Assembly (NCBI GenBank): GCA_026391315.1
Contig: JAPLDT010000017.1
Coordinates: 1-39,420 of the forward strand
Source of the DNA: Bacteroidia bacterium
GTDB lineage: Bacteria; Bacteroidota; Bacteroidia; Bacteroidales; Prolixibacteraceae
DNA length: 39,420 nt
Direction: 5' to 3'
In this document: positions 4,111 to 22,296 of the stretch, piece after piece
Numbering within the stretch: the stretch's first letter is position 1
How the letters are laid out: every line of letters begins with the position of its first letter
Program-made: the position numbers and the translations under genes
Notes under the pieces: model-generated
What the model was told of the DNA's origin: nothing
What the model saw: the letters and a program-made list of their open reading frames with translations, nothing else
Database searches by the model: none

Positions 4111-4318
4111 GGGGGCGACTTGGCGAGGGGGAGAGTGGGCGAGTGGTTAAATGAAATATTTGAAAGGAGTGGAATCCCTTTGGGGATGACCAGTATTGTA
4201 GCCCGGGATGGAGCGAAGCGGAATCCCGGGTAAATGAATGCAGGGAGATCAACGTCCGCGGTAGCATTTAGGAAAATGAGATTGAATTGTTTCGGACGGA
4301 AAGAACAAATATTGAAAG
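4111..4318 (+). repeat. Structured dispersed element, copy 1
   Basis: Core 4174-4318. Hairpin 1 is ATCCC/GGGAT (4174-4187), hairpin 2 is CCCGGGAT/ATCCCGGG (4202-4230) with the REP-like loop GGAGCGAAGCGGA, and a closing stem CGTCCG (4253-4258)/CGGACG (4293-4298) encloses 34 nt. It ends AAAGAACAAATATTGAAAG. A G-rich extension from 4111 (GGCGACTTGGCGAGGGGGAG) is shared with copy 3. The Gfo/Idh/MocA gene starts 85 nt downstream in the same orientation. The rest of spacer 4052-4402 shows nothing else. Confidence 0.75.
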
Positions 4319-4402
4319 CTGGCGATCGAAATTTTTCAATAGTTTATTCAATGTGAAATTATAATTTTGATAAAAGACCAAACTTTTTTTTTATTCATTG
4401 AT

Positions 4403-5560
4403 ATGGCTGAAAATATTACCATCCACAAAGTTGGGATCATCATGAACGGCGTGACCGGACGCATGGGCACCAACCAGCACCTGATGCGTTCCATTGTCGA
4501 AATAATCAAACAGGGCGGCGTGCAATGTGGACCCGCTGAGTATATCATGCCCGATCCTGTACTTGTTGGTCGCGATGAAGTTAAACTCAGGAAGCTGGCT
4601 CAACTGTCGGGAGTCGAAAAATGGACCACCAACCTGGATGAGGTCATGAAGGATCCATCCTATCAGATCTATTTCGATGCGCAAACCACCGGACGCCGTG
4701 CCGAGGCTGTTAAAATGGCCGCAAGGGCAGGCAAGCATGTCTATTGCGAAAAGCCCGTAGCAGTTGATACAGCAACGGCCCTTGAATTGTATGAGGTATG
4801 TGAAAAGGCCGGCGTCAAGCATGGGGTAGTGCAGGATAAGCTTTTCCTGCCGGGGATGTTAAAACTCAAACGGCTGATGGAGAACGATTTTTTCGGGAAG
4901 ATACTGTCGGTAAGGGGGGAATTCGGATACTGGGTCTTCGAAGGATTTAATATCCCTGCCCAACGTCCCAGCTGGAACTACCGGAAAGAGGATGACGGTG
5001 GCATTATCGTTGATATGCTGTGTCACTGGCGGTATGTACTCGATAATCTTTTTGGGAATGTGAAGGGTGTCTTCTGTCTTGGCGCCATGCATATCCCCGA
5101 AAGGGTAGACGAGAAGGGCAAGGTTTATAAATGTACGGCCGACGATGCTGCCTATGCTACTTTTGAACTCGAAGGCGGGATCATCGCTCATTTCAACTCC
5201 TCCTGGGTGACGAGGGTGCGTCGCGATGACCTGCTTACGCTGCAGGTCGATGGTACCAAAGGTTCTGCCGTAGCCGGATTGCGCGAATGCTGGACCCAGC
5301 ATTATGGAAATACGCCCAAACCCGTCTGGAATCCGGATATTCCGAGTCCCATCAATTTTTTTGAAGGATGGTCAAAAGTGCCTGAACAGGAGTCGTTTGG
5401 AAATGCATTTAAAGTAGAATGGGAACTCTTCCTCAAACATGTGGTCAAAAACGAGCCCTTCCGCTGGACCTTACTTGAAGGCGCCAAAGGAGTTCAGCTG
5501 GCCGAAAAAGGGCTGGAGAGTTGGGCGAAACGGTGCTGGGTGGAGGTTCCGCCGCTGTAA
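4403..5560 (+). CDS. Gfo/Idh/MocA family oxidoreductase
   Basis: A 385-residue NAD(P)-dependent dehydrogenase of the Gfo/Idh/MocA type, predicted to oxidise or reduce a sugar or sugar-derived hydroxyl. The N-terminal Rossmann segment is unusual: instead of a plain GxGxxG it reads VGIIMNGVTGRMGTNQHL. The family hallmark EKPVA follows in GKHVYCEKPVAVDTATA, then the substrate domain with DMLCHWRYVLDNLFG. The ATG at 4403 is preferred because the Rossmann strand follows at once; the in-frame start at 4367 would add 12 unrelated residues. It is separated from the isomerase by structured repeat copy 1, so it may be transcribed from its own leader. Context suggests a later step of the same sugar pathway. 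Confidence 0.82.
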   Translation: MAENITIHKVGIIMNGVTGRMGTNQHLMRSIVEIIKQGGVQCGPAEYIMPDPVLVGRDEVKLRKLAQLSGVEKWTTNLDEVMKDPSYQIYFDAQTTGRRAEAVKMAARAGKHVYCEKPVAVDTATALELYEVCEKAGVKHGVVQDKLFLPGMLKLKRLMENDFFGKILSVRGEFGYWVFEGFNIPAQRPSWNYRKEDDGGIIVDMLCHWRYVLDNLFGNVKGVFCLGAMHIPERVDEKGKVYKCTADDAAYATFELEGGIIAHFNSSWVTRVRRDDLLTLQVDGTKGSAVAGLRECWTQHYGNTPKPVWNPDIPSPINFFEGWSKVPEQESFGNAFKVEWELFLKHVVKNEPFRWTLLEGAKGVQLAEKGLESWAKRCWVEVPPL

Positions 5561-5906
5561 AAGTGGAGAGACTCCGAAATAATTTGCACGCAATGACAGG
5601 ACGGGGAGATTAGGAGACGGGGGGACTTGGGGACGGAAAGACTTGGAGACTACGGGACTTGGGGAAAGAACTCCTAAAAGTTGAAACGATGAAATAGAGA
5701 TATCTCTTTTCATTTCAATCTGTATAATTGTTTTCCACCGGTAGTCAGAGGTTTATCTGTGGCTATTTGTGCAATTTGTGTAATTTGTGGTGGGGAGGGG
5801 TTTTATATGGTTTGAAATGTTTCCCAATTCTGTTTATTCTGAAATTCTGTAAATTCTGCTTCAGACAATTTGTGTAATTTGTGGTGGTGATAATCTAAAC
5901 TTGAAA
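5561..5906. repeat. Intergenic spacer with purine-rich block and direct repeat
   Basis: No gene is visible. Bases 5593-5668 are a purine-rich stretch built from loose copies of GGAGACTTGGGGAC-like units; similar wording recurs at about 20401-20440. The 22-base motif starting CAATTTGTGTAATTTGTGG occurs twice in direct orientation (5772-5793 and 5866-5887), and the second copy ends 19 nt before the SDR start codon. No terminator or clear promoter was found. Confidence 0.55.
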
Positions 5907-6677
5907 ATGAAAAAGATCGCATTAATTACCGGCGGAACCCGTGGCATAGGACTCGGCATCGCCATAGAACTGGCAAAAGCCGGATTTAACCTGGCATTGA
6001 GCGGAAAGCGTGAGGAATCATCTGTTGCATCAGTGCTGGAAGAATTGGCTGAGTTGGGTAGTGAGGTGGCCTATTTCCGGAGCGATGTATCAGTAACAGC
6101 CGACCGCCAGCAACTCGTTGATTCTGTAAGGAAGCGGTTTGGCAAGGTGAATGTCCTGGTAAACAATGCCGGCATAGCCCCGTCCGAACGAAGGGATATC
6201 CTGGATGCAACCGAGGAGAGCTTTGAGCAGGTACTTCACGTTAACTTGCAGGGTCCCTATTTCCTGACCCAATTAATAGCCAATCAGATGATAGAAGTGA
6301 AGAAGCAGGTGCCGGATGAATTTTTCTGCATCATCAACGTTTCTTCGGTGTCGGCTTCATTTGCATCGACCAACCGTGGTGAATACTGTATTTCAAAAGC
6401 TGGAATTGCCATGGCCACCAAATTGTGGGCAACCCGGCTGGGAGAATTTGACATTCCGGTGTATGAAATTCAGCCCGGGGTGATCAGAACCGACATGACC
6501 TACGGAGTCCAGAAAAAATACGATGCGCTGTTTCAAAACGGAATGGCCATTCAGTCAAGATGGGGAGCGCCTGAAGATGTAGGTAGGGTGGTAGCTGCCA
6601 TGGCAACAGGAAGTATGCCCTATTCAACCGGACAGGTGGTAATGGTAGATGGGGGGATGTCTGTACCAAGACTATGA
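5907..6677 (+). CDS. Short-chain dehydrogenase/reductase (FabG-like SDR)
   Basis: A 256-residue classical SDR, predicted to reduce a keto group or oxidise an alcohol using NAD(P). Motifs run in the expected order: cofactor loop TGGTRGIGLGIA near the N-terminus, NNAGIAP at about 86-92, the catalytic serine region NVSSVSA at 144-150, and the YxxxK pair Y160/K164 in EYCISKAG, followed by PGVIRTDM. The ATG at 5907 is used; a TTG two codons earlier is in frame but less likely. FabG is the closest textbook relative. However, the gene lies in a sugar-degrading cluster and not with fatty acid genes, so a sugar or sugar-acid substrate is more likely. It is the last gene before a 561 nt repeat-filled spacer. 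Confidence 0.82.
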   Translation: MKKIALITGGTRGIGLGIAIELAKAGFNLALSGKREESSVASVLEELAELGSEVAYFRSDVSVTADRQQLVDSVRKRFGKVNVLVNNAGIAPSERRDILDATEESFEQVLHVNLQGPYFLTQLIANQMIEVKKQVPDEFFCIINVSSVSASFASTNRGEYCISKAGIAMATKLWATRLGEFDIPVYEIQPGVIRTDMTYGVQKKYDALFQNGMAIQSRWGAPEDVGRVVAAMATGSMPYSTGQVVMVDGGMSVPRL

Positions 6678-6732
6678 TTGTGTAGTAGTTATTTGATCAC
6701 ATGTTTTTTTCATAAGATAGTTTGACTTTTAA

Positions 6733-6918
6733 CAGATTGCTTCCCGCTTCGTGCCTCGCGGTCGCAATGACGGATCATTTTTTTGGAGGTGAGGGTGGAG
6801 AGAAGGAGGCGGGCGGCTATTCTACTATTACCGAAAACTGATGATCCGCCTCCTTCTCTCCATCCTCACAAAATCAACAGCATACCGTCATTGCGAGGAG
6901 GAACGACGAAGCAATCTG
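6733..6918. repeat. Large dispersed palindrome with GCAATCTG ends
   Basis: The outer arms CAGATTGCTTC...CGCAATGACGG (6733-6773) and CCGTCATTGCGAGG...GAAGCAATCTG (6885-6918) are imperfect inverted copies. The inner arms 6789-6812 and 6846-6869 (GTGAGGGTGGAGAG...GAGGCGG and its complement) match at 23 of 24 positions. This type of CGTCATTGCGAGG...GAAGCAATCT repeat is widespread in bacterial genomes as a non-coding palindrome. It probably also ends transcription from the SDR gene. Confidence 0.7.
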
Positions 6919-7174
6919 CTGATATACAGTAAAATATACTTTGAGCCAGTTATGACAAAATTTGATATTAGATCATCGCACTGTGCCAATTATGACAGAT
7001 GATATGTATCTGTCATTGGTAACACTGCCTGTCCCGATTTTTCATCGGGAAGGAACGAAGTGCGAAGCAATCTGTTTATAAGCCGCACTTGATTTTCTTA
7101 AGGCATTGAATATTAATAGAATGATAAAAGTCCTCATCAATCGACTAAAAAAATAGTTAAATATTTATAAAACT
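6919..7174. repeat. Remainder of spacer with two hairpins
   Basis: No gene is visible. An 8-bp stem TGACAGAT/ATCTGTCA lies at 6992-7014. A CCCGAT/ATCGGG hairpin at 7033-7049 is followed by GAAGTGCGAAGCAATCTG, a partial second copy of the palindrome end found at 6733-6918. Confidence 0.5.
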
Positions 7175-7206
7175 ATTGTGTGACTATAAATATAGTTGTA
7201 CATTTG
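7175..7206 (+). promoter_or_regulatory. Promoter and candidate BlaI-type operator
   Basis: ATTG (7175-7178), a 20 nt spacer and TACATTTG (7199-7206) fit the Bacteroidota TTTG/TAnnTTTG promoter pattern. The spacer holds a perfect palindrome ACTATAAATATAGT (7183-7196). BlaI/MecI-family repressors bind AT-rich dyads overlapping their own promoters, so this is a likely autoregulatory operator. The start codon lies 32 nt beyond the -7 box. Confidence 0.6.
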
Positions 7207-7238
7207 TTTCGAAGGATTGACAACAAAAAACAACAACC

Positions 7239-7616
7239 ATGCAATTAACAAGATCAGAAGAACAGGTGATGCAGATTTTGTGGGGATTGGGCGAAGGACT
7301 CGTCAAGGATATCCTGGACAAGTTTGACGACCCAAAACCTGCACGCAATACAGTATCGACAGTAGTAAGAATTCTGGAAAAAAAGGGATTTGTCGGGCAC
7401 AAGGATTATGGCAAAGTGTTTGTCTATTATCCGCTGGTGCAAAAGAAAGAGTATTCGGGCAAGCAGTTGATTGGATTGATGAACAACTATTTTAACAACT
7501 CCTTCCCTGCCATGGCCTCCTTCTTTGCCAAGGAGAACGACCTGTCGATCCGTGATCTTGAATTGCTGCTCGAAGAGACTAAAAAGGAGTTGGTAAAACG
7601 CAATAAAACCGAATAA
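7239..7616 (+). CDS. BlaI/MecI family transcriptional repressor
   Basis: A 125-residue winged-helix repressor of the penicillinase-repressor family. The N-terminal DNA-binding part is clear: LTRSEEQVMQILWGLGEG, then the recognition-helix region ARNTVSTVVRILEKKGFVGH and the wing GKVFVYYPLV. The C-terminal helices (residues ~75-125) should form the dimer. The next gene, an M56 metallopeptidase, begins 1 nt after the stop, giving the usual repressor-sensor pair. In that arrangement the sensor triggers cleavage or release of the repressor. No beta-lactamase gene is adjacent, so the signal may be envelope stress rather than an antibiotic. The palindrome in its promoter suggests autorepression. Confidence 0.9.
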   Translation: MQLTRSEEQVMQILWGLGEGLVKDILDKFDDPKPARNTVSTVVRILEKKGFVGHKDYGKVFVYYPLVQKKEYSGKQLIGLMNNYFNNSFPAMASFFAKENDLSIRDLELLLEETKKELVKRNKTE

Positions 7617-7617
7617 A

Positions 7618-9768
7618 ATGGAAGCACTCGGATTGGTTCTGTTAAAATCAGCCGCATGGCTGACCGGTTTTGCACTGGTTTATCTGCTGGTGTTGCGCAA
7701 CGAACGCTATTTCAGGCTCAACAGGCTCTACCTGCTGACAGGAATAGCTGCTTCTCTCCTATTTCCTTTTTATACTTTTCATTACACGGTAGTCATTCCT
7801 TCAAAATTGATGGATTCTGCTTCAGTAGGAGAGTTAATGCCCGGAGGCGTTGTTGCATCCGAGTCTGCACTGCCCTTCTACTTCTGGATCTATCTGGCTG
7901 GTATTGTTACTTTTTTGCTTAGGCTTCTCTTCCAGACGTGGAAGATCATCCGGAAATTAAAGGAAACCGGCTATGAACAAACCGGATCCGTGAAACTGGT
8001 CCGTACATCGGAATATGCCTCCTCGTTTTCATTTTTCTCTTACGTATTTGTCAATCCTTCAACAGCGACAAGTGAGATGGAAGTGATCATGAACCACGAG
8101 CGCGAGCATATTCAGCAGCGCCACTGGTTGGATCTGCTGTTGGTCGAATTGATCTGTATTGTGCAATGGTTCAATCCGTTTGCCTGGATTTACGTCCATC
8201 TGGTCCGCCAGAACCACGAATACCTGGCCGATGAGCAAGCCTTGCAGCGTACAGTCGATCCGGTCATTTATCAGGCTGCACTTCTAAACCAGTTGTTGGG
8301 AGTTCCTGTCTTCAGTCTCACCAACTCCTTCAGCTATTCACTAAACAAAAAAAGATTTAACATGATGAAAAAGAAAATAGAATCCCCTTTCAGAAAATTA
8401 AGGATGTTGCTGGTTTTGCCACTGGCGGCCATGATTTTCTATGCCTTTGCCGTGCCGGAATATCAATATGGAAGCGATCAAAACACGCTTGCACCCGATG
8501 GGAAAACGATGAATGTGAAAGGCCAGGTGCTTAAAGCAGATGGAACTACACCACTGCCAGGAACCTCCGTTATTTTGAGAGGTTCTACAATTGGAACAAT
8601 TACTGATCCGGAAGGAAATTTCCTCTTTAAAGGAGTTCCGGTAGATGGGGAACTGGTCTTCTCCTTTGTGGGATTTAAGACCGTAGTCCAGAAGGTAAGC
8701 AATCAACCGATGAAAATTGTCATGGAGGTTGAAAAGGTCGGTATTGACCTGGTGGTTGTCACTGCGTTAGGACCGCCACCACCACCACCGCCGCCACCGC
8801 CGCCACCACCACTTGATTTGACAAAAATGATTAGTGATCTGAATCCTCCACTGGTGTTTTTGGATGGTGTTCAAATTTCGAAGGAGGGAATGAATCAGAT
8901 CAAACCGGACCAAATTGAATCGATCTCTGTGCTAAAGGATAAGTCTGGAATTACTTTATATGGTGACATGGGCAAGAATGGCGTGATTCTGATCACTACC
9001 AAGGCTCAGGCAGGCAAAAATCCCTATAAGAATATAACCTATTCAGACAAAAAGGGGGAACCACAAAAAAGTGCTGATAATGTCTTTGTGGTAGTGGAAG
9101 AGATGCCCGAATTTCCCGGAGGAGAACTGGCACTGAGAAGTTTTATCGGCAGAACGATCAAGTATCCGGCAGATGCAATCAAAGACAGTATCCAGGGAAA
9201 AGTATTCGTCACCTTCGTCGTTAAGTCGGACGGGACCGTCAGCGATGCCAAAATAGCCAGGGGAGTTCATCCTTTACTGGATAACGAAGCAATTAGGGTA
9301 ATAAATCTGTTACCCACCTGGAAACCAGGCAAACAGCGTGGTCAGGCAGTGAATGTATCTTATACTGTTCCCGTAACATTCGCCCTGGATGGTGGTAAAG
9401 CTAAACAAACAGCATCTTTTGTAGCGCCAAAAACTCCTCAAAAAGGGGAAAAGCAAGTCTTCATCGTAGTTGAAGAGATGCCGGAATTTCCGGGAGGAGA
9501 ATTAGCTTTAAGAATGTTTGTAGGTAAGTCAATCATATATCCTCGTGAAGCTCAAAAAGATGGGGTTCAAGGAAGCGTTTTTGTCTCCTTTGTCATTAAT
9601 TCGGATGGGAAAGTTGAGCAGGCAAAAATTGAAAGGTCAGTCAATCCGGCCCTGGATGCCGAAGCAATCAGGGTTGTTAACCTGATACCCGACTGGAAAC
9701 CAGGAAAACAACGTGGACAGGCGGTTAGCGTAGCCTATACCATTCCGATTGAGTTCAAGCTGCAATAG
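7618..9768 (+). CDS. M56 (BlaR1-like) metallopeptidase fused to TonB-type domains
   Basis: A 716-residue inner-membrane protein. Residues 1-~285 form a BlaR1/MecR1-like M56 domain with several membrane segments and the zinc motif HEREH at 160-164, followed by ADEQAL. Next comes a carboxypeptidase-regulatory-like beta domain (about 300-375: KGQVLKADGTTPLPGTS...GFKTV), then a run of 13 prolines (386-398), and a segment like a TonB-receptor plug (VFLDGVQIS...GVILITTK). Two tandem TonB C-terminal domains end the protein, each starting FPGGELALR and containing WKPGKQRGQAV. The proline run could span the periplasm. It is co-transcribed with the upstream repressor. It may sense envelope state and contact outer-membrane transporters; the fused domains make a purely antibiotic-sensing role unlikely. 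Confidence 0.85.
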   Translation: MEALGLVLLKSAAWLTGFALVYLLVLRNERYFRLNRLYLLTGIAASLLFPFYTFHYTVVIPSKLMDSASVGELMPGGVVASESALPFYFWIYLAGIVTFLLRLLFQTWKIIRKLKETGYEQTGSVKLVRTSEYASSFSFFSYVFVNPSTATSEMEVIMNHEREHIQQRHWLDLLLVELICIVQWFNPFAWIYVHLVRQNHEYLADEQALQRTVDPVIYQAALLNQLLGVPVFSLTNSFSYSLNKKRFNMMKKKIESPFRKLRMLLVLPLAAMIFYAFAVPEYQYGSDQNTLAPDGKTMNVKGQVLKADGTTPLPGTSVILRGSTIGTITDPEGNFLFKGVPVDGELVFSFVGFKTVVQKVSNQPMKIVMEVEKVGIDLVVVTALGPPPPPPPPPPPPPLDLTKMISDLNPPLVFLDGVQISKEGMNQIKPDQIESISVLKDKSGITLYGDMGKNGVILITTKAQAGKNPYKNITYSDKKGEPQKSADNVFVVVEEMPEFPGGELALRSFIGRTIKYPADAIKDSIQGKVFVTFVVKSDGTVSDAKIARGVHPLLDNEAIRVINLLPTWKPGKQRGQAVNVSYTVPVTFALDGGKAKQTASFVAPKTPQKGEKQVFIVVEEMPEFPGGELALRMFVGKSIIYPREAQKDGVQGSVFVSFVINSDGKVEQAKIERSVNPALDAEAIRVVNLIPDWKPGKQRGQAVSVAYTIPIEFKLQ

Positions 9769-9790
9769 AATTATTTTCATAACTTTGTTG

Positions 9791-9827
9791 GAGGCCGTTT
9801 CAAAGAGGTGAAGCGGCCTCTTCTTTA
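9791..9827 (+). terminator. Rho-independent terminator after the M56 gene
   Basis: Stem GAGGCCG (9791-9797) pairs with CGGCCTC (9814-9820) and is followed by TTCTTTA. It lies 23 nt past the stop codon of the M56-TonB gene. Confidence 0.65.
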
Positions 9828-10129
9828 TGCCCGCCCTTTTCCCCTTTTTAATCATGGCCTTACTAAATTCAGGCCATTGTTCAGATAGGTGAAGAGGTGA
9901 AAATAAGATACGAAGTTCAGTTGTTAAAACAATCCTGAAAAATCTCGTATAAACAGACAGAGAAATGTCATTCGTCTTTGTGAAACCTTCGTGTCTTTGT
10001 GACTTAGTGGCTATTATTTTCCTGCCACAAAGACGCAAAGTCACTAAGGCATCACAAAGAATTATAATTTGAACAATTCTGAATGTGCAGGATAGATCAA
10101 AAATGGACACAAAGAATTTTTAAAAAACT
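9828..10129. repeat. Spacer with imperfect CTTTGTG palindrome
   Basis: No gene is visible. Arms 9976-10011 (CTTTGTGAAACC...TTAGTGGC) and 10024-10059 (GCCACAAAGACGC...CACAAAG) form a long imperfect hairpin. Relatives with CACAAAG or CACAGAG wording lie at about 12298-12405 and 30043-30223. Confidence 0.55.
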
Positions 10130-10996
10130 ATGGCCATCACACCTTTAATCGGTTCAACCATGCAATTGAATGCATTGAATAATTTAGCGGGATTTACGAA
10201 CAACACAGCGCAAATGCCTGTGCTGTTTCTGGGCCACGGCTCTCCGATGAACGCCATCGAAGAGAACGAATTTGTTGCCGGATGGCGGGAAGCCGGGAAA
10301 ACCATACCACGTCCCAATGCCATATTGTGTATCTCTGCGCATTGGGAGACAAGTGGTACTTTTGTGACTGCCATGGAGAAACCATTGACCATCCACGACT
10401 TTGGCGGTTTCCCGCAGAAATTGTTCGATATGCAGTATCCGGCTCCGGGAAGTCCGGAACTGGCTTCCAATGTTCAAAAGATCATCACAAAAACAGAGGT
10501 CGGTCTCGACCAGAAATGGGGTCTCGACCATGGCTGCTGGAGTGTGGTAAAGCATCTGTATCCTGCAGCGGATGTGCCTGTTATCCAGATGAGCCTGGAT
10601 TATTACCAGACACCCCAGGCACATTATGATCTGGCCAAAGAGCTAGCCTCCCTGCGGATGAAGGGGGTTTTGATTGTGGGAAGCGGGAACATCGTTCACA
10701 ACCTGGGCCGGGTTGCCTGGGATAAACTGAATGAGCCAGGATTTGCCTTCGATTGGGCCACAGAAGCGAACGAAACCATGAAGAAGTTCATCCTCAATGG
10801 CGATCACAAGCAGTTGATCGATTACAAATCACATGGCAGGGCCTTCGATCTGGCCATCCCGACACCCGAACATTTCCTGCCGTTGTTGTACATTCTTGCG
10901 TTAAAAGAGGAGCATGAAGAAGTGACGATATTCAACGATCAGACAGTTGTCGGCTCTCTTTCCATGACTTCTGTAAAAATTGGCGCAAGCCGCTAA
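10130..10996 (+). CDS. ygiD: 4,5-DOPA-extradiol-type dioxygenase (YgiD/LigB family)
   Basis: A 288-residue cytosolic enzyme of the class III extradiol dioxygenase fold. The family binds a metal, zinc or iron, and in plant and bacterial relatives opens the catechol ring of DOPA. Metal-ligand histidines are visible at H36 (FLGHGSP) and H71 (ISAHWE), with later ones in NIVHNLG and TPEHFLPLLY. DHGCWSVVKHLYP and SLDYYQTPQAHYDLAKEL are typical of YgiD-like proteins. The N-terminus is ~14 residues longer than in E. coli; an internal ATG at 10160 is an alternative start. The gene stands alone between repeat-rich spacers, and the physiological substrate in Bacteroidota is unknown. Confidence 0.82.
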   Translation: MAITPLIGSTMQLNALNNLAGFTNNTAQMPVLFLGHGSPMNAIEENEFVAGWREAGKTIPRPNAILCISAHWETSGTFVTAMEKPLTIHDFGGFPQKLFDMQYPAPGSPELASNVQKIITKTEVGLDQKWGLDHGCWSVVKHLYPAADVPVIQMSLDYYQTPQAHYDLAKELASLRMKGVLIVGSGNIVHNLGRVAWDKLNEPGFAFDWATEANETMKKFILNGDHKQLIDYKSHGRAFDLAIPTPEHFLPLLYILALKEEHEEVTIFNDQTVVGSLSMTSVKIGASR

Positions 10997-11014
10997 CGGC
11001 AAATATAATTTCAA

Positions 11015-11022
11015 TACTTTTG
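11015..11022 (+). promoter_or_regulatory. Candidate -7 box for the MFS gene
   Basis: TACTTTTG matches TAnnTTTG and lies 63 nt before the ATG of the transporter. No convincing -33 TTTG was seen. Confidence 0.3.
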
Positions 11023-12276: not shown

Positions 12277-12297
12277 CCGGGCATTAATTATTGCTTT

Positions 12298-14794: not shown

Positions 14795-15614
14795 TTACTT
14801 TGATCGTCATCCTGATGTTCTCCAGCGGACGATCGTTAGCGCCGGTTGGTTGGGCAGCGATGGAGTCAATGACGGCAAATCCTTCCAACACTTCACCAAA
14901 AACGGTATAACCTCCATCAAGGTGTGGAATTCCTCCGAGCGTGGTGTAGCTTTCAACTTGTTGTTTGGTTAGCCTGACCGGATTTTTTTCGACCTCCCTG
15001 ATCGCCTTTTGCTTTAGTTTTTCAATCAATTTGTCGTATCCCTCCTTGTTTCTGGCCATTTGGAACAACATGAGGGTATCAATTTTCTCAGATTTCATTT
15101 TCAGAAATAGCGATTGCGATGCCCCGATATTCATTTTTTGCTCAATGACCGGAATTTCTTCCAGTTTGTACACTTTGCCCTGGGCGAGATAAAACTGGGT
15201 GGCCGAAGAGCGGCGTTCGGGATTCTCTTCATCTCCGTTTCTTGCGGCGGCGATCACCCCTTTTTTGTGAATAATTCCGGGTACGATTTCTGCCGGAATG
15301 GTATAATTCAGATCTCCGTCGCCGAGCACCTGGTCTTTGGTGGCACGTTTGGAATTGGGATCTCCACCTTGTACCATAAAGCCTTTGATCACACGATGAA
15401 AAATCAGGCTGTCAAAAACGCCCTCTTTCGTAAGCTTCATGAAGTTGTCGCGGTGCAAGGGCGTTTGGTTGTAAAGCACCACCTTCATATCGCCATATTT
15501 TGTTGAGATCAGCACCATTGGACCTTCTGGCACCGGTTTGTTCTGTGAGAATGAGCAGGAGGAGATGGTGGCAATGGCCAGAAACAGGGAGGTTTTTATC
15601 AAGAAATGTTTCAT
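14784..15614 (-). CDS. Cyclophilin-type peptidyl-prolyl isomerase lipoprotein
   Basis: A 276-residue exported PPIase. The N-terminus is a lipoprotein signal with the lipobox TISSC at residues ~16-20, so the protein should be lipid-anchored in the envelope. The cyclophilin fold follows: MVLISTKYGDMKVVLYNQTP, FHRVIKGFMVQGGDP, and the late block GGYTVFGEVLEGFAVIDSI. An inserted helical segment of ~70 residues (about 165-225, rich in Lys and Glu) interrupts the domain between the SSATQFYLAQG strand and the last block. Such insertions are typical of Bacteroidota periplasmic cyclophilins. It probably assists folding of envelope proteins. It is convergent with aroA and overlaps it by 11 nt. Confidence 0.88.
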   Translation of the reverse strand: MKHFLIKTSLFLAIATISSCSFSQNKPVPEGPMVLISTKYGDMKVVLYNQTPLHRDNFMKLTKEGVFDSLIFHRVIKGFMVQGGDPNSKRATKDQVLGDGDLNYTIPAEIVPGIIHKKGVIAAARNGDEENPERRSSATQFYLAQGKVYKLEEIPVIEQKMNIGASQSLFLKMKSEKIDTLMLFQMARNKEGYDKLIEKLKQKAIREVEKNPVRLTKQQVESYTTLGGIPHLDGGYTVFGEVLEGFAVIDSIAAQPTGANDRPLENIRMTIKVIKE

Positions 15615-15653
15615 AATAAAATGATTACTTGTATTATTTATCGGAATAGTGAC

Positions 15654-15905
15654 TCATAAGCCCAGGAGGAGAGGAATGTCCTCAGGTTTTACTGAAACCA
15701 AGTCCCCATGATTGGCTTCTTCTATCGAACGATCGAGTCGCGCCCGGATCTCTGGTTCAGAGAAATATTTTACTGTTTCGTCAATGGGAACAAGAGCATA
15801 TGATTTATTCTTGCCGCGTTGCACGATGACCTGTTCTTTTTGATCGATTAGGTCAAAATACTTCTTTTGATTCTCACGGAACTCTCTGCTACTAATGACC
15901 AACAT
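15654..15905 (-). CDS. Phd/YefM-type antitoxin, apparently orphan
   Basis: An 83-residue protein with the Phd/YefM N-terminal DNA-binding fold: MLVISSREFRENQKKYFDLI, followed by the strand pair EQVIVQRGKNKSYALVPID. The C-terminal part (about 48-83, ending PEDIPLLLGL) would bind a toxin. No toxin gene lies downstream: 39 nt after the stop is the end of the oppositely unlinked cyclophilin gene start, and no RelE/YoeB or Doc ORF is visible on either side. It may be a remnant or act in trans. A TATCTTTG box and a perfect dyad just upstream suggest it still controls its own promoter. Confidence 0.8.
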   Translation of the reverse strand: MLVISSREFRENQKKYFDLIDQKEQVIVQRGKNKSYALVPIDETVKYFSEPEIRARLDRSIEEANHGDLVSVKPEDIPLLLGL

Positions 15906-15935
15906 AACTTAAAATTAATAGTATATAATTTTAAC

Positions 15936-15966
15936 AAAGATAAATTGAAAGTACCAATTTGGTACA
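15936..15966 (-). promoter_or_regulatory. Promoter box and perfect dyad before the Phd gene
   Basis: On the minus strand TATCTTTG (15936-15943) matches the Bacteroidota -7 pattern. Immediately upstream of it, in the spacer expected between -33 and -7, lies GTACCAATTTGGTAC (15952-15966), two 7-bp arms around one base. This is a likely operator for Phd autorepression. Confidence 0.55.
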
Positions 15967-16011
15967 CGTTTTCTAAAAATAATTACCTATTATAGGATCA
16001 CTTGAATGTTT

Positions 16012-17100
16012 TTATTCATGCGCCAGAAACAATTCATGTAATTTTTGTGCCAGTATTTTTTTGTCAGGTATGGCCATCAGGTATTGGGCAACCATTGTCG
16101 GACTTAAACTTCGGTTCAAAGCATACTCAACTACCTCATCGTCCTTGTCCCTGCAAAGTAATATCCCAATGGTTGGATTCTCATGGGTTTTTTTAATATC
16201 CCGATCCAGTGCTTCCAGATAGAAATTGGTTTTACCCAGGTATTCCGGTTCAAACCGACTGGTTTTAAGTTCAAAAGCGATCAAACATTGAAGGGATCTG
16301 TGAAAAAACAGAAGGTCGATTCTAAAATCGCGATTGCCAACCTTAATTGGAAATTCTTCACCGACAAGCAGATAGTCAGATCCCAATTCCAGCAAAAAGT
16401 GCTTTAATTCATGCAACAAAGCTTTCCTTAGTTCATTTTCGATATAAGGTTCAGGAAGGTTCAAGAATTCAAAAACATAGCTGTCTTTAAATACGTTGCT
16501 AAAATCCTGGGGCAGTTGTTTGATGTTTTTTGAAAGATGGGCATTCCCCAGCATGACCCGTTCAAATACTCCGCTGTTAATTTGTCTGTCCAATTCCCTT
16601 TTGCTGTAATGGTCCTGAATACAAAGCCGGATATAAAACTCTCTTTCTTCCGCCGATTTGCATCTTCCGATAATAATCAGATGATGAGTCCAGCTTATTT
16701 TAGCCAAAATTGTCTTACGAATATCATCGCTCTCAATGATGGGGATTTCCTCCTCCTGTAAATGTCGCACCAGTGGTGCGACATTTACAGGAGGTTATAA
16801 ATCAGTATCTTGTAAATGTCGCACCACTGGTGCGACATTTGGCGCATCCTTATACAATTGATAAAACTGACACATCCGGTAGATGTTTTTCTTGTCAAAT
16901 CCTTTGATATCCGGATATCTGTTTTTGATAAAGTTCGTCAACTCAACAACAGTACTTTCTCCCCAGGAAGCGTTCCCCAATTTTTCAGAAACAAAATGCC
17001 CCACTTGCCAGTAAAGATTCACCAATTCGCTGTTTACAGTGTAAAGTGCCAGACTACGGGCACTTTGAAGCAGTGACACAATTTGTGAAAATTCATTCAT
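16012..17100 (-). pseudogene. DUF1016 (YhcG-like) PDDEXK nuclease gene interrupted by in-frame stop
   Basis: Read through, the frame is 362 residues, normal for the DUF1016 nuclease family, whose members are linked to R-M and defence islands. Residues 1-101 are the N-terminal domain (VNLYWQVGHFVSEKL, GFDKKNIYRMCQFYQLYKDAP). A TAA at 16795-16797 stops the frame, which resumes in phase without a frameshift. It continues into ISWTHHLIIIGRCKSAEEREFYI, RQINSGVFERVML and the PDDEXK-like core (FRIDLLFFHRSLQCLIAFELKT). The stop lies between two copies of NVAPxVRHLQ, coded by a tandem duplication of perfect palindromes (16752-16794, 16814-16840). A GTG at 16768-16770 could restart the second half. It could be a pseudogene, a two-part protein or a read-through gene. 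Confidence 0.8.
16752..16840. repeat. Two tandem perfect palindromes inside the DUF1016 gene
   Basis: Bases 16752-16794 form a 43-bp palindrome with perfect 21-bp arms around one central base; its core is TGTCGCACCAGTGGTGCGACA. Bases 16814-16840 form a 27-bp palindrome with 13-bp arms around one base, the same core with C at the centre. The two are 19 bp apart. In the gene frame both encode NVAP(L/V)VRHLQ, and the stop codon TAA lies between them. Confidence 0.85.
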
Positions 17101-17306
17101 ACCTAAAAATTTAAATGATTGTGAATTTTGATCCAGAAACCAACCAATCGGGAATTGGTTTATAGGTCTCTATTAAAGTTACCCAATTTTGACCAGAATT
17201 CCAAATTTGCATGATGGAAACCTCTTAGCATGACTTCTAAGTAGCAATCATCCAGATCAAACCACCTCTTTCTGACCAGTTTTATCCTTCCCATCCCTTT
17301 TTTTTA

Positions 17307-17314
17307 TAATTTTG
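17307..17314 (+). promoter_or_regulatory. Candidate -7 box for cysS
   Basis: TAATTTTG matches TAnnTTTG and ends 26 nt before the cysS start codon. A TTTA rather than TTTG lies about 22 nt upstream. Confidence 0.4.
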
Positions 17315-17340
17315 CAGCTTGATATTTAGATACAACCACC

Positions 17341-18816
17341 ATGGAAAAGTTAACGCTGCACAACACCCTGACCCGTAAAAAGGAGCTTTTTGTCCCCATT
17401 CACAAGGATCATGTCGGGATGTATGTCTGCGGTCCGACTGTCTATGGGAATGCCCACCTGGGGCATGCCCGTCCGGCAATCACCTTTGATTTACTCTTTC
17501 GGTATTTGTTGCACATTGGATACAAGGTAAGGTACGTCAGAAATATCACAGATGTGGGTCATCTGGTCAACGATGCGGATGAAGGAGAAGACAAGGTGGC
17601 AAAAAAAGCCAAAGTGGAGGAACTGGAACCGATGGAAATCGTTCAAATCTACACCAACAGCTACCGCAAGAACATGGCGCAGCTCAACGTGCTTCCGCCC
17701 AGCATTGAACCCACTGCTTCAGGGCATATCATCGAGCAGATCGAAGCTGTAAAGAAGATGATTGAAGCCGGATTTGCCTATGAAACAAATGGTTCCGTTT
17801 ATTTTGATGTGGAGACCTATGCAAAAAACCATCCTTACGGGATACTTTCCGGCCGAAAAATTGAGGATCTCTATACCAATACCCGCGACCTGGATGGTCA
17901 GAACGAGAAGAGATCAGGTTTGGATTTTGCGTTATGGAAAAATGCCTTGCCCGAACATATCATGCGCTGGCCGTCACCCTGGGGTATCGGTTTCCCGGGA
18001 TGGCACACGGAATGTACGGCCATGAGCACCAAATACCTGGGTGAGACTTTCGATATCCACGGAGGCGGACTGGATCTTCTTTTCCCGCACCACGAAGCAG
18101 AGATTGCCCAGGGAGTGGCTTGTTTTGGTCATGCTACTGTTAACTATTGGATTCATAACAACATGATCACCATCAATGGTCAGAAAATGGGCAAATCACT
18201 GGGTAATTTTATCCAGTTGGATGAGTTCTTCACGGGCAACCATCCTTTGCTCGAAAAGGCCTACAATCCAATGACCATTCGCTTCTTCATGCTACAGGCA
18301 CACTACCGTAGTCCGCTCGATTTCTCCAATGAGGCACTCCAGGCTGCCGAAAAAGGATTTGAACGGCTGATGAATGCCATGGCATTGCTCAAAAACCTGA
18401 AAACAGCCGACACTTCCACCCTGGATGTGGAAAAGCTGAAAAGGAATTGCTATGATGCATTGAACGACGACCTAAACAGTCCGATCCTCATTGCCCACCT
18501 TTTTGACGGAGCGAAAATGATCAACTCTGTCAATGACGGGAACATGACAATCACGGCTGCTGATCTCGTGAAACTTCAGCAGCTTTATACCGACTTGGTT
18601 TACGATGTCCTTGGATTACAGCCTTCCGGCGACAGCCCGGAAAACGGCAACAGCGAGCTATTCGGGCAGATGGTTGAGCTTCTGCTCATCCTGCGGCAAG
18701 AGGCAAAAACCAAAAAGGATTGGACTACTTCCGACCAGATCCGCGACCGCCTCACCGCTTTGGGCTTTGAAATCAAAGACACCAAAGAGGGGGCAGACTG
18801 GAAACTCAAAAATTGA
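17341..18816 (+). CDS. cysS: Cysteinyl-tRNA synthetase
   Basis: A 491-residue class I aminoacyl-tRNA synthetase that charges tRNA-Cys. The zinc-ligand cysteine and HIGH-type motif sit in [57 protein letters not shown] contains further zinc ligands. The adenylate loop reads KMGKSLGNF, with Gly in place of the usual Ser of KMSKS. The C-terminal part carries the helical anticodon region ([38 protein letters not shown]). Length is normal. It is a single-copy housekeeping gene and seems monocistronic, with a Bacteroidota -7 box 26 nt upstream. Confidence 0.95.
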
Positions 18817-18952
18817 CAGTTAACAATTGATAATGGACAACTGTCAACTAAAGTGAACTAAATTGTCTAAAGTTTTTGTTTTGAACCAATACAGTGCCGA
18901 TACCATAAGTACTTTAGTCACTTTAGCTCACTCTAGTCACTTTAGGCATTTC
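18815..18952. repeat. Convergent spacer made of palindromes
   Basis: TTGACAGTT (18815-18823) and AACTGTCAA (18838-18846) form a perfect stem directly at the cysS stop and may terminate it. Further on, CTAAAGTGA-type words near 18850-18875 are inverted against ACTTTAGTCACTTTAG near 18909-18948, ending at the stop of the convergent zinc-ribbon gene. Confidence 0.5.
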
Positions 18953-19387
18953 TTAATAAGTGAAAAGCTTTCGCACATCCTTTTTCTCGTCATCGGAGAG
19001 ATGAGTCAGCGAATCAAGGGCGGCGCTTATCTTTGATTTAAAATTCCAGCAAGTCATCTGTCTGAGGGAAAGTCTTCTGGCAAACTCGTAGGTTGAAATG
19101 GTCTCATTCCCTTTGCATACCTGGAAGGCTATGTAAAAGGCTTTGCTGATCGGAAACTTGCAGTTGTGAAAAATTGTTCCGGCAGTTGCCGATTCTTCGC
19201 TTTTGCATTTTGTGCATCTCCTCGAAAATGGGGTCTTGCCAGTGCAGTAGTTGGTGTTTCCACATTTCCTGCATTCAAATCCCTCCCCCCATTTTAATGC
19301 AGAGATAAACTCAAGACATTTCTCATCGCTTTGAAACATCAAGTCAAGCTCATCTGGAGTCAGATCCTCTGAAAAGAAATTCTTCAT
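18953..19387 (-). CDS. IS1595/ISXO2-type zinc-ribbon protein, stand-alone
   Basis: A 144-residue protein matching only the N-terminal part of IS1595-family transposases. It shows the zinc ribbon (CRKCGNTNYC...CTKCKSEESATAGTIFH, residues ~39-73), then the helical block KFPISKAFYIAFQVCKGNETISTYEFARRL. The catalytic DDE domain that normally follows is absent: the frame ends after SLTHLSDDEKKDVRKLF. No terminal inverted repeats or target duplication were found around it. It is either a truncated transposase remnant or a domesticated DNA-binding protein; the intact frame and its own TATTTTTG box just upstream favour retained expression. With that box so close, the transcript could be nearly leaderless. 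Confidence 0.7.
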   Translation of the reverse strand: MKNFFSEDLTPDELDLMFQSDEKCLEFISALKWGEGFECRKCGNTNYCTGKTPFSRRCTKCKSEESATAGTIFHNCKFPISKAFYIAFQVCKGNETISTYEFARRLSLRQMTCWNFKSKISAALDSLTHLSDDEKKDVRKLFTY

Positions 19388-19391
19388 TTTG

Positions 19392-19399
19392 CAAAAATA
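19392..19399 (-). promoter_or_regulatory. Candidate -7 box for zinc-ribbon gene
   Basis: On the minus strand TATTTTTG ends 5 nt before the start codon, which would leave almost no 5' leader. Confidence 0.3.
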
Positions 19400-19451
19400 G
19401 TGATAATAAAAAGATTTAAGTGATAGTAATACGATTTAAAATTAATTTTTC

Positions 19452-19459
19452 TATTTTTG
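19452..19459 (+). promoter_or_regulatory. Candidate -7 box for the ArsM-like gene
   Basis: TATTTTTG matches TAnnTTTG, 75 nt before the chosen ATG at 19535. No good -33 element was seen. Confidence 0.35.
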
Positions 19460-19534
19460 TCGGATCAATGCAACGATTGACGAACTTAGTTGGTTAGTAA
19501 TTGTTTATTTAATGGATTAGTTTTTTGTAAAGAT

Positions 19535-20188
19535 ATGGATTATTCTAGTATAAATCTTAGGTACAGTCAGTTGGCCAAGACAGAATGCTGTCTTTCTTGT
19601 GGTGGTGCACTCAATTTTTCAAAAATTCAGCCCGGTGAAATTTGTGTGGACCTGGGAAGCGGACGGGGTACCGATGTGCTTCGAATGGCCGAACAGGCAG
19701 GAGAAGAGGGATTTGCATACGGTATAGATATTTCGGATGGCATGTTGGCAACCGCCAGGGAGAATGCCGGTAAATTTGGAGTCAGCAATGTCAAATTTAT
19801 CCAAAGTGAACTGGAGAAACTGGAACTGCCTGATCAAACAGCAGATCTGGTTGTATCGAATTGTACCATCAACCACGCTGCAGATAAAGCAGCCGTATGG
19901 AACGAAATTTTCAGGATTCTGAAAAAGGGGGGGCGTTTTGTCATAAGCGATATTTATGCGACCTCATCTGTTCCGGAGGAGTACCGCAACGATCCGGTAG
20001 CAGTTTCAGAGTGCTGGGCAGGCTCGGTTACACGCGAGGAGTATCTGGATACCCTTAACGCAGCCGGATTTCAAACAATCACGATTCTGGAAGAATCCAA
20101 ACCTTATCCGAAAGGGAAGGTAGAGGTCTGCAGTTTCACCATAGCCGGGGAAAGGCCGAAAGGCAAAACCTGCGGCTGCAAAGCATAG
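19535..20188 (+). CDS. ArsM-like SAM-dependent methyltransferase
   Basis: A 217-residue class I methyltransferase. The SAM-binding motif is VDLGSGRGTD (38-47), with GIDISDGML further on. It resembles arsenite methyltransferases in its cysteines: C22 in ECCLSCGGA, C110 in VVSNCTINH and C160 in SECWAGS sit where ArsM has arsenic-binding thiols. Two more cysteines close the tail (KTCGCKA), and C18-C19 add a pair at the front. It is shorter than typical ArsM. The ATG at 19535 is preferred over an upstream TTG, since the family-like sequence starts there. A 32-residue Cys-rich ORF follows 55 nt later and a terminator ends the unit. Substrate may be arsenite, or the thiols of a peptide; sequence alone does not decide. 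Confidence 0.72.
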   Translation: MDYSSINLRYSQLAKTECCLSCGGALNFSKIQPGEICVDLGSGRGTDVLRMAEQAGEEGFAYGIDISDGMLATARENAGKFGVSNVKFIQSELEKLELPDQTADLVVSNCTINHAADKAAVWNEIFRILKKGGRFVISDIYATSSVPEEYRNDPVAVSECWAGSVTREEYLDTLNAAGFQTITILEESKPYPKGKVEVCSFTIAGERPKGKTCGCKA

Positions 20189-20243
20189 TGGCTTTTCTAA
20201 GCAAATATATAATTACGTAATTCATTCATTAATTGTTTTTTAA

Positions 20244-20342
20244 ATGAAAAGTTTGGTTAAAAAGCAGGAAGCGCAGAAAAGCGTGGTGATAGCCCAGTGC
20301 TGTGCCAAGACTTCCAAGTCGGTTGTGGGATGCCACGACTAA
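20244..20342 (+). CDS. 32-residue Cys-rich peptide, candidate precursor
   Basis: This small ORF of 32 codons plus stop lies between the methyltransferase stop and a strong hairpin. The first 18 residues are basic and polar (MKSLVKKQEAQKSVVIAQ), leader-like; the last 14 carry C19, C20 and C30 (core CCAKTSKSVVGCHD). The upstream sequence is A/T-rich, as usual in this phylum, with no Shine-Dalgarno site. A radical SAM/SPASM protein, a common modifier of short ribosomal peptides, is encoded 327 nt downstream, and the ArsM-like methyltransferase lies directly upstream. It could be a RiPP precursor, a metal- or metalloid-binding peptide, or a chance ORF. I do not recognise a named family. Confidence 0.5.
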   Translation: MKSLVKKQEAQKSVVIAQCCAKTSKSVVGCHD

Positions 20343-20351
20343 ATCATCCTG

Positions 20352-20390
20352 AATAGGCTGCCAGGAGAGCAATTTCCTGGTAGGCTTATT
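20352..20390 (+). terminator. Terminator hairpin after the Cys-rich ORF
   Basis: CCAGGA/TCCTGG with an 8-nt loop is extended by AATAGGCTG pairing with TAGGCTTATT through one bulge and a wobble, then CTTT. It lies 10 nt past the small ORF stop and separates it from the downstream radical SAM gene. The spacer 20391-20453 holds only purine-rich sequence (GGAGACTAGGAGA-like). Confidence 0.6.
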
Positions 20391-20453
20391 CTTTAAGGAA
20401 AGACTAGGAGACTAGGAGAAGGGAAGACGGGGTGAGTGGAACTCCGGAGCTAT

Positions 20454-20600
20454 ACCGCGAAGCGGTTAAATGTTAATAGCCCGGGGTGAGCGACGAAGGA
20501 GCATAACCCCGGGTAAAAGAATGCATAAGAACCACCGTCCGTGGTAGCAGATAGAAAAAACGTTGAAAGATTTATTCGGACGGAAAGAATAAATATTGAA
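20454..20600 (+). repeat. Structured dispersed element, copy 2
   Basis: Hairpin 1 ACCGC/GCGGT (20454-20466), hairpin 2 CCCGGGGT/ACCCCGGG (20480-20513) and closing stem CCGTCCG (20535-20541)/CGGACGG (20577-20583) around 35 nt, ending AAAGAATAAATATTGAA. The radical SAM gene starts 69 nt later in the same orientation. Arm sequences differ from copies 1 and 3 but pairing is kept. Confidence 0.75.
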
Positions 20601-20668
20601 TGAAGCGCAATCGACCCTTCGGCTGGCTCAGGAACCGAATCGAAAATCCAAAATCGAAAATTGTCTAA

Positions 20669-22009
20669 ATGATCCTATCAAAACACAATATTGTATCCAA
20701 AGTAGCTGGTTCAGAGAGCTATTTCGTAGTGAACCTGTTAAGCGGAAATGCCGATCTTCTTACCAAAGAAGAGGCTGATACTTTGACGAAACAAGATATA
20801 GCGTTGGCTGAGAACCAGCAAATGGTTAATGATCTTGCTGAAAACGGGTACATCATCACTGCCGAAAACGAGAATAAAATCTACCGCAACCGTTATTTTG
20901 ATTTTGTAGATCAACGGGACGATGAAGAGGTTCAGCTCTTCTTTGTTCCGAATTACAGTTGCAATTTTAGCTGTAGTTATTGTTACCAGGATGAGTACAC
21001 CAATCCACATCAGCGTGCAACGCCCGAACTGATCCATGCTTTCTTCGACTATGTCAGGAAAGAACTGCCTGGAAGGCGTAAATACCTGACCATTTTCGGC
21101 GGCGAACCGTTGTTAAATACTCCCCAACAGCGCGAACTGATTGCACTTTTGGTTGAGAAATCCAATGAAGCAGGAATAGATATTTGTGTTGTTACCAATG
21201 GTTATTACCTTGAAAACTATATTGATCTGCTCTCAAAAGGGAAAATCCGCGAGATACAAATCACCCTGGATGGCACAAAAAAGATCCACGATCAGCGGCG
21301 TTTTATCAAAGGAGGTTCACCTACTTTTGAGCCGATCGTAAGGGGTATCGATGCCGCGTTGACAGCAGGTTTTCCGGTTAATCTACGGATGGTGATCGAC
21401 AAGCAAAATATCGGGAATCTTCCTGAACTGGCCTCTTTTGCCATTGAAAAGGGATGGACCTCGCATCCTTTGTTTAAAACGCAAATTGGTCGGAACTATG
21501 AATTGCATCACTGTCAGTCAACTCCTGATCAGTTGTTTACGAGAATTTCGCTGTTCAGGAAAATTTTTGAACTAACAGAAGAATATCCGCATATCCTGAA
21601 ATTTTACAAACCCTCCTATTCGGTGGCCAAATATCTTTCCGAGAACGGTACCCTGCCTGACCCGTTGTTTGATGCCTGTCCGGCGTGCAAATCGGAGTGG
21701 GCATTTGACTACACCGGACGAATTTACTCCTGTACTGCAACCGTCGGCAAAGAGGAGGAGGCATTGGGTACTTTTTACCCGGAGGTAACAAAAAACGAGC
21801 AGTTGATACATCAATGGGCTTCGCGGGATGTCACCTCCATTGAAGAGTGCCGGAATTGTTCAGTACAACTCGCATGCGGCGGAGGGTGCGGTTCGGTGGC
21901 TAAAAACAAGAATGGCTCCATCCTTTCGCCCGACTGCCGTCCCGTGAAAGAGTTGCTGGAGATTGGTTTCAGGGCGTATTTCGGCGCAGAATTGACAATT
22001 GAAAGTTGA
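20669..22009 (+). CDS. Radical SAM/SPASM domain protein, probable peptide maturase
   Basis: A 446-residue protein. Residues 1-~90 look like the small winged-helix/PqqD-like front found on peptide-modifying radical SAM enzymes (SESYFVVNLLSGNADLLTKE). The radical SAM cluster motif CxxxCxxC is C98, C102 and C105 in YSCNFSCSYCYQDEY. The barrel continues with FGGEPLLN and TNGYYL. The C-terminal SPASM region begins at C337-P-A-C340 and continues with YSCTATVG, SIEECRNC and ACGGGCGS, enough cysteines for auxiliary iron-sulfur clusters. Such enzymes make thioether or carbon-carbon links in ribosomal peptides or modify enzyme partners. The nearest small ORF is the Cys-rich one at 20244. Structured repeat copy 2 forms its leader. 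Confidence 0.85.
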   Translation: MILSKHNIVSKVAGSESYFVVNLLSGNADLLTKEEADTLTKQDIALAENQQMVNDLAENGYIITAENENKIYRNRYFDFVDQRDDEEVQLFFVPNYSCNFSCSYCYQDEYTNPHQRATPELIHAFFDYVRKELPGRRKYLTIFGGEPLLNTPQQRELIALLVEKSNEAGIDICVVTNGYYLENYIDLLSKGKIREIQITLDGTKKIHDQRRFIKGGSPTFEPIVRGIDAALTAGFPVNLRMVIDKQNIGNLPELASFAIEKGWTSHPLFKTQIGRNYELHHCQSTPDQLFTRISLFRKIFELTEEYPHILKFYKPSYSVAKYLSENGTLPDPLFDACPACKSEWAFDYTGRIYSCTATVGKEEEALGTFYPEVTKNEQLIHQWASRDVTSIEECRNCSVQLACGGGCGSVAKNKNGSILSPDCRPVKELLEIGFRAYFGAELTIES

Positions 22010-22048
22010 CAATGAAGCACTGAGCGCTGAGAAAATGAGAAGTGAGAA

Positions 22049-22296
22049 GGGGCGACTTGGCGAGGGGGAGAGTGGGGCGAGTGGTTTAAAAGGGAAACAC
22101 GAGTGGTGACAGGGAGCGTGGAAGACGGAGAAAGTTCGACTCCTGAGTTTAGCCACGTAGTGGCGAAATCTTGGTAGCCAGGGGTGGAGCGAAGCGGAAC
22201 CCCTGGTAAATGAATGCAAAACGACCCACCGTCCGCGTAAGTAATTTGAAAAATGGTTGATGATTGTTTCGGACGGAAAGAGCAAATATTGGAAAG
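22049..22296 (+). repeat. Structured dispersed element, copy 3
   Basis: Hairpin 1 GCCAC/GTGGC (22152-22164), hairpin 2 CCAGGGGT/ACCCCTGG (22178-22206) with loop GGAGCGAAGCGGA, closing stem CCGTCCG (22229-22235)/CGGACGG (22270-22276) around 34 nt, then AAAGAGCAAATATTGGAAAG. The G-rich front from 22049 matches that of copy 1. The Trx-TrxR gene begins 27 nt after the end. Nothing else is seen in 22010-22322 apart from an AATTGACAATTG-type repeat at the left edge. Confidence 0.75.

Follow-up and report, generated by a model that had tools for sequence, protein, structure and literature searches.

The window analyzed here, a stretch of 39,420 nt from the genome of a Prolixibacteraceae bacterium (Bacteroidia; assembly GCA_026391315.1, contig JAPLDT010000017.1, positions 1 to 39,420), contains three copies of an element of about 145 nt, at 4174-4318, 20454-20600 and 22152-22296, all on the plus strand and each with three paired stems at strict spacing. 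We give somewhat better than an even chance to the interpretation that this element is a composite, non-autonomous repeat of the repetitive extragenic palindrome (REP) type, with cassettes that are exchanged by TnpA transposases beside a constant unit. In its 5' part, each copy consists of hairpin 1 (5-bp stem, loop of 3-4 nt), 9-10 nt, a GTAG/ATAG tag and hairpin 2 (8-bp stem); in the 3' part, about 21 nt after hairpin 2, a third stem, CGTCCG/CGGACG, encloses 34-35 nt. An initial annotation of the window had described the three same-strand copies with these positions and this layout, all of which were found as described. It had favored a structured RNA or a leader regulator and had named a REP-type mobile element as the alternative. 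The alternative is the better supported half, given that the cassettes resemble those of TnpA loci, the copies are dispersed and missing from some orthologous sites, and their types differ; altogether, a composite REP-type element fits the evidence better than a regulatory RNA.

Copy number, pairing and distribution of the repeat family

The host genome comprises 4.69 Mb in 111 contigs, the window being located on contig C27. A full covariance model, proposed as a check in the initial annotation, was built from five copies (the three in the window and two found by pattern) and retrieved dozens of dispersed copies from this genome, namely 42 full-length matches with scores of 82-160 bits, the next match scoring 60 bits. 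The three copies in the window are thus a sample of a repeat family, with a recurrence far beyond chance. As is typical of REPs, the copies are many and intergenic: none of the 42 lies inside a codon-scored gene. A cruder list of open reading frames has overlapping opposite-strand frames at several of them. Some paralogous pairs have about 250 bp or more in common at different loci, with mosaic ends. No Rfam family reached its gathering score in the window (0 matches), and at E-values up to 1 the only match was to a small nucleolar RNA (E 0.24), outside the copies.

The covariation with strict spacing that had been claimed for the three copies is borne out by copies outside the model. In 47 matches from three sister genomes, which are the best-scoring ones rather than all (the same holds for the orientation counts below), 98.0% of the cells are paired, as opposed to at most 55.8% when the partner is slid, in an alignment that was fitted to the model and hence is biased towards it; two-sided changes occur in 9 of the 20 pairs. 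This signal comes mainly from hairpins 1 and 2 and is a mix of differences between cassette types and single-pair changes within a type. In 23 copies, a search for additional conserved helices between the 5' part and the third stem yielded only the same three stems, together with an inner portion of hairpin 2.

The third stem is the constant unit of the family. A model of this stem identified 51 instances in the host genome (E below 1e-6) that, by eye, comprise the 42 full composites, 2 copies without hairpin 2, 4 whose cassettes are of other types and 3 not preceded by a hairpin; two copies on contig C63 lack hairpin 2. The arms are nearly invariant, with a two-sided change in 1 of the 7 pairs, in 4 of 44 copies. 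The distance from hairpin 2 to the third stem is 20-22 nt in 68/68 copies where both were located (85 examined).

This stem is found almost only in the family Prolixibacteraceae. The full model matches 27 of 61 genomes (the host, itself included in the count, and 60 relatives), many of the matches outside the genus being weak and possibly due to the hairpins alone. The model restricted to the third stem discriminates better. Of 81 genomes, 17 have matches: all 8 of the genus (51 copies in the host and between 1 and 42 in each of the others) and 9 of the 41 further members of the family, whereas the 32 genomes from other families of the order have none. Among 296 genomes sampled evenly across the phylum, the host genome and, weakly, a single genome from another family are the only ones matched. 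When named genome contigs, among which records near the host genome have possibly been left out, were scanned by pattern, 36 stretches were obtained, all from metagenome-assembled genomes titled Bacteroidetes, Bacteroidota, Bacteroidia, Bacteroidales, Prolixibacteraceae or Tangfeifania.

Two further third-stem matches are weak and have a variant stem, CGCCCG/CGGGCG (L196, about 2001-2073, and L197, about 157-229; G000 C96:69929 and C110:157). Both lie in like CCTTATT / AATAAGG surroundings and perhaps represent a second, related family. Another repeat, the short interspersed palindrome GGTCCCTGAGC...GAAGGG, occurs frequently close to the copies; in some cases, namely in the loops of L115, L116 and L228, it lies within the third stem just before the 3' arm.

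TnpA genes and the hairpin cassettes

REPs associated with a HuH transposase are of a known kind (PMC3733652, PMC6006769). Like the GTAG-tagged REPs of TnpA_REP/RAYT (REP-associated tyrosine transposases), the composites are made of short palindromes, bear a GTAG-type tag, here at the 5' foot of hairpin 2, and are present in many intergenic copies (PMC3733652, PMC6006769). Units that resemble their hairpin 1 cassettes in layout, though not the composites as a whole, surround HuH/Y1 transposase genes. By eye, the tetranucleotide at this foot is GTAG, ATAG or ATAA in nearly all copies listed. REPs have been reported mainly between unidirectional and convergent genes (PMC3733652), and the composites likewise lie mostly between unidirectional genes. 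The composite departs from the GTAG-tagged REPs (PMC3733652, PMC6006769) in that its two hairpins are unlike and follow each other in tandem, its cassettes differ, a constant third stem of 48/49 nt lies at a fixed distance, and its orientation is strongly sense.

Two other identities were considered. The CGTC near the 5' end of the third stem resembles that of CGTC-tagged REPs, in which, however, an unpaired CGTC end stands beside a stem of 8-9 bp with a loop of mostly 4-5 nt (PMC3733652); given that in the third stem CGTC is paired within a 7-bp arm and the loop is 34-35 nt long, this identity was rejected. In combining more than one REP-like hairpin, the composite resembles bacterial interspersed mosaic elements (BIMEs) and REP doublets forming hairpins (REPINs) (PMC6006769, PMC3116915), an identity that was also rejected because hairpins 1 and 2 are unlike and in tandem, and are not inverted copies.

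The host genome encodes 11 matches to Y1_Tnp, 10 of them above the cut-off. The motif Y---Q--HH, that of TnpA_Y1 subclass 1.2 (PMC6006769), is present in 9/9 TnpA proteins with a near-full domain match, a count that excludes the partial matches L010 and L011. The same source tabulates this subclass with REP "no" (PMC6006769); here, in contrast, hairpin-spacer-tag units flank 7 of the 9 near-full genes and also one partial match. Searches of the openly licensed PMC literature listed no earlier description of a composite with a constant anchor, or of REP-like units beside subclass 1.2 genes.

These units (a hairpin, 8-10 nt and (G/A)TA(G/A)) number 31 in the 16,500 nt of flanks of the 11 TnpA loci, compared with a mean of 0.98 and a maximum of 5 in 100 rounds of dinucleotide shuffling, and with 5 in 60,000 nt of other sequence from the host genome. 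They occur at 8 of the 11 loci (L002, L003, L004, L006, L007, L008, L009 and the partial match L011). Hairpin 1 of the composites, with its 9-nt spacer and the tag, has the same layout. Two degenerate patterns, written after the TnpA flanks and the composites had been viewed, together have 25 matches genome-wide, 12 on the TnpA side and 13 before a third stem, with no third context: GCGGTTANAGTNTTGTAG is matched 8 times, 4 around TnpA L004 and 4 as hairpin 1 of composites, and GYNGCGDNATNNTGGTAG 17 times, 8 around TnpA L008 and 9 at composites. The latter include copy 3 of the window, whose hairpin 1, spacer and GTAG (to 22177) fit the pattern. The long hairpin 2 loop AGCGACGAAGGAGYG occurs in composites only (25/25), so that it has no TnpA-side partner here. 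The initial annotation had proposed looking for a RAYT-type transposase in the host genome; Y1/HuH genes with like hairpin units were indeed found, but full composites adjoining a TnpA gene were not.

From the like cassettes at TnpA loci, we infer that TnpA may mobilize and exchange the cassettes of the composites. The constant unit, comprising a linker of about 21 nt and CCGTCCG-N34/35-CGGACGG, would bear in front a REP cassette in which hairpin 1 is followed by 9-10 nt that include (G/A)TAG or ATAA and, in most cases, by another hairpin. TnpA proteins would cut and join this cassette as single-stranded DNA, and cassettes of different TnpA families would come and go at a fixed position beside the constant unit. 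Entire composites might also be gained by copying at further intergenic positions, or lost from earlier ones, with the copies surviving mostly in the direction of the surrounding transcription. A more specific version, which we consider conceivable though doubtful, is that the third stem is a landing pad at which subclass 1.2 TnpA_Y1 enzymes of several families exchange REP cassettes at one anchor, insertion or survival being tied to the direction of transcription. Whereas a REP is generally regarded as a palindrome that belongs to a single transposase, here cassettes like those of several TnpA genes stand at one conserved anchor. If such exchange takes place, sister species would provide natural before-and-after pairs for REP movement.

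Turnover at orthologous sites and orientation relative to genes

The gene order around the radical SAM gene of the window is kept in the sister genomes where it is readable. In the spacer between this gene and the thioredoxin gene (copy 3), 4 of the 6 readable sisters have a composite; in the remaining 2, which lack it, only about 95-115 nt separate the two protein matches. By eye, the module in front of the third stem at this site varies from genome to genome between a single hairpin, a pair whose second hairpin has decayed, and a distinct two-hairpin type that resembles one beside TnpA L006. The spacer of copy 2 has an element, of another hairpin type, in a single sister of 7 and none in the other 6. 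A miniature inverted-repeat transposable element (MITE) of a DDE transposase would be expected to have terminal inverted repeats and a target-site duplication; the element-free sites, read by eye, showed no clear duplication, their boundaries being blurred by other repeats.

Of 15 cross-genome pairs of copies with common flanks, 12 were used (one alternative partner of a tandem copy and two pairs matched on the downstream side only were dropped by hand) and 10 could be parsed. These 10 orthologous pairs, which have genomes and sites partly in common, include 5 that are supported by the upstream flank only and three that link up as a triangle at a single site. In them, the loop of the third stem is inherited: its identity is 0.69, compared with 0.60 in 1967 non-orthologous pairs (resampling p 0.00025). 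In 7 of the pairs, by contrast, the two copies have different hairpins 1, and in 4 of these both the stem and the spacer class (assigned by eye) differ.

Several observations weigh against cassette exchange by TnpA. The post hoc origin and degeneracy of the two cassette patterns count here, as does the lack of an exact 18-mer common to TnpA-side units and composites for either of them; a third cassette pattern is less exclusive, with 14 of its 20 matches at composites and 6 at double hairpins without a third stem. No hairpin-spacer-tag unit was found at the TnpA loci L001, L005 and L010 (3/11), and no full composite adjoins a TnpA gene among 242 loci, where TnpA was present only in L069 and in 12 loci chosen for the L004/L008 cassette patterns. 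In a tblastn search with the 9 TnpA proteins, L069 was the only one of the loci L047-L157 with TnpA, and it has only weak covariance-model matches. At orthologous sites, the hairpin 1 stem agrees in 3 of 10 pairs and in 15% of the non-orthologous ones (p 0.18), and so is not below background, and 3 of the 7 differing pairs differ in one stem pair only, as ordinary compensatory change would give. Replacement of cassettes would also be explained by gene conversion between copies, a possible alternative. Finally, a plain REP predicts neither the loop of the third stem, which is 34 or 35 nt long in 77 of 79 parsed copies (of 85) despite its drifting sequence, nor the bias in orientation described below. 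Given the lack of a common exact 18-mer and that only 4 of the 7 differing pairs are clear changes of type, we hold the interpretation as a TnpA-exchanged composite with caution.

A codon-scored gene caller was used to determine the orientation relative to genes of 85 copies, drawn from four genomes and with tandem copies counted singly; 79 of these are classifiable and 6 lack a flanking gene. Between co-directional genes, 60 copies are sense and 3 antisense, and a further 9 lie between convergent and 7 between divergent genes. The initial annotation had set random orientation as a sign against a regulator, and no such randomness was found. In the host genome, the ratio is 31:1 (binomial p 1.5e-8), or 27:2 with a simpler gene caller; pooled p values are not relied on because of the dependence among tandem and among orthologous copies. 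Replication-strand bias was considered as a cause, but a modest co-orientation of genes with replication would hardly yield a bias of this size. The 60:3 ratio makes some link of the copies to transcription likely and renders the connection between REP placement and transcription directly testable. Together with the fixed loop length, it leaves room for a role at the level of RNA or in DNA binding.

Three rival explanations draw on these features. Under the first, which we deem unlikely, the copies would be transcribed elements in 5' or 3' untranslated regions of mRNA, with stems that protect, process or insulate segments of operons, spread as a repeat and kept for their function. The sense bias with both gene callers, the strict loop length and the preservation of three stems by two-sided changes, some of them single-pair changes within one cassette type, are all compatible with such an element. 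It is harder to reconcile with the absence of the element from 2 of 6 and 6 of 7 sisters at the two sites, with the presence of another repeat inside the third-stem loop of some copies (L115, L116, L228), and with the fact that part of the change in hairpin 1 is replacement by types resembling TnpA-locus units.

A riboswitch-like cis-regulatory leader of the downstream gene is, in our judgment, very improbable. All three window copies end shortly before a same-strand start codon, at 84, 68 and 26 nt from the ATG for copies 1, 2 and 3, close to the 27-85 nt noted initially, and the downstream gene is sense for 67 of the 79 classifiable copies. Nevertheless, 12 of the 79 have no sense gene downstream, the downstream gene being convergent in 9 cases and antisense in 3. 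Convergent and divergent sites are about equal in number, which agrees with neither a strict leader nor an element confined to 3' ends. At co-directional sites, the distance to the downstream sense gene varies between -8 and 840 nt, with a median of about 95-100 nt; this excludes one distance of 1429 nt at which the codon-scored caller missed a gene that the simpler caller places, in sense, at 39 nt. The five downstream genes tested belong to unrelated families (GFO/IDH/MocA oxidoreductase, radical SAM, thioredoxin with pyridine-nucleotide-disulphide oxidoreductase, DUF4922 and CxxCxxCC), and no Rfam match is credible. Of the structured RNA or leader favored initially, the pairing and the sense bias stand, whereas the unrelated genes, the varied distances and the convergent sites weaken it. 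The motif TAnnTTTG, which we take to be promoter-like, is too rare around the copies to be informative (2 upstream, 7 downstream).

The third rival, a site in double-stranded DNA, appears improbable. A protein dimer would bind the inverted CCGTCCG/CGGACGG arms, the centers of which are 41-42 bp apart, about four turns at the helical pitch of DNA of 10.5 bp. The near invariance of the arms and the constant length of a loop that drifts in sequence are as expected of such a site, which, however, explains neither the sense bias nor the REP cassette at a fixed distance.

Features of the window

The coordinates of the three copies and their neighbors are given in Table 1. The third stem is 6 bp long in copy 1 and 7 bp long (CCGTCCG/CGGACGG) in copies 2 and 3.

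Table 1. Components of the three composite copies and adjacent features in the window
Feature	Position	Strand	Remark
Copy 1 hairpin 1 (ATCCC/GGGAT)	4174..4187	+	
Copy 1 GTAG tag (4198-4201) and hairpin 2 (CCCGGGAT...ATCCCGGG, 4202-4230)	4198..4230	+	
Copy 1 third stem CGTCCG-N34-CGGACG, constant unit	4253..4298	+	third-stem model R2 match 4244-4315
Copy 2 hairpin 1 (ACCGC GAA GCGGT)	20454..20466	+	
Copy 2 ATAG tag and hairpin 2 (CCCGGGGT...ACCCCGGG), long-loop type	20476..20513	+	
Copy 2 third stem CCGTCCG-N35-CGGACGG	20535..20583	+	third-stem pattern and model
Copy 3 hairpin 1 (GCCAC GTA GTGGC)	22152..22164	+	
Copy 3 GTAG tag and hairpin 2 (CCAGGGGT...ACCCCTGG)	22174..22206	+	
Copy 3 third stem CCGTCCG-N34-CGGACGG	22229..22276	+	third-stem pattern and model
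Purine-rich repeat (family D7) upstream of copy 1	4102..4139	+	89% identity to 22039-22076 upstream of copy 3
GFO/IDH/MocA oxidoreductase gene, downstream of copy 1	4403..5560	+	
Radical SAM protein gene, downstream of copy 2, upstream of copy 3	20669..22009	+	
Gene with thioredoxin and pyridine-nucleotide-disulphide oxidoreductase domains, downstream of copy 3	22323..23591	+	

The limits of the element differ from those initially proposed. The tail AAAGAxxAAATATTG, taken initially to be part of the element, is not general: AATATTG is found at this end in 7 of the 42 host-genome copies, and AAATATTG was rejected as a general feature on the same count. At the other end, many copies reach further 5' than the proposed length of about 145 nt, by about 35-100 nt. 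A 5' domain, GACCACnAT...AATCC, directly precedes hairpin 1 in about half of the host-genome copies (19 of 42 by text pattern, 23 by eye). This domain, about 35-100 nt before hairpin 1, is often preceded by a GTGAAAATTGGCAGTTGCAC stretch; other copies bear a GCAACTCCGGGGTTA type there. One pair of copies, L112 and L194, has an inverted, REPIN-like arrangement, at G000 C46:101421-101538 (minus strand) and C46:101639-101788 (plus strand), with the hairpin 1 ends facing each other about 100 nt apart.

The window also contains repeats of other kinds: short tandem arrays of GAAATGTTT (9 nt) and GTATTTCAAT (10 nt) at 25343-25431 and 34641-34740, a cluster of direct and inverted AAGGATAAAG repeats at 31338-31608 and 33781-33819, and two near-identical palindromes, AAATGTCGCACCAGTGGTGCGACATTT, in inverted arrangement at 16760-16840.

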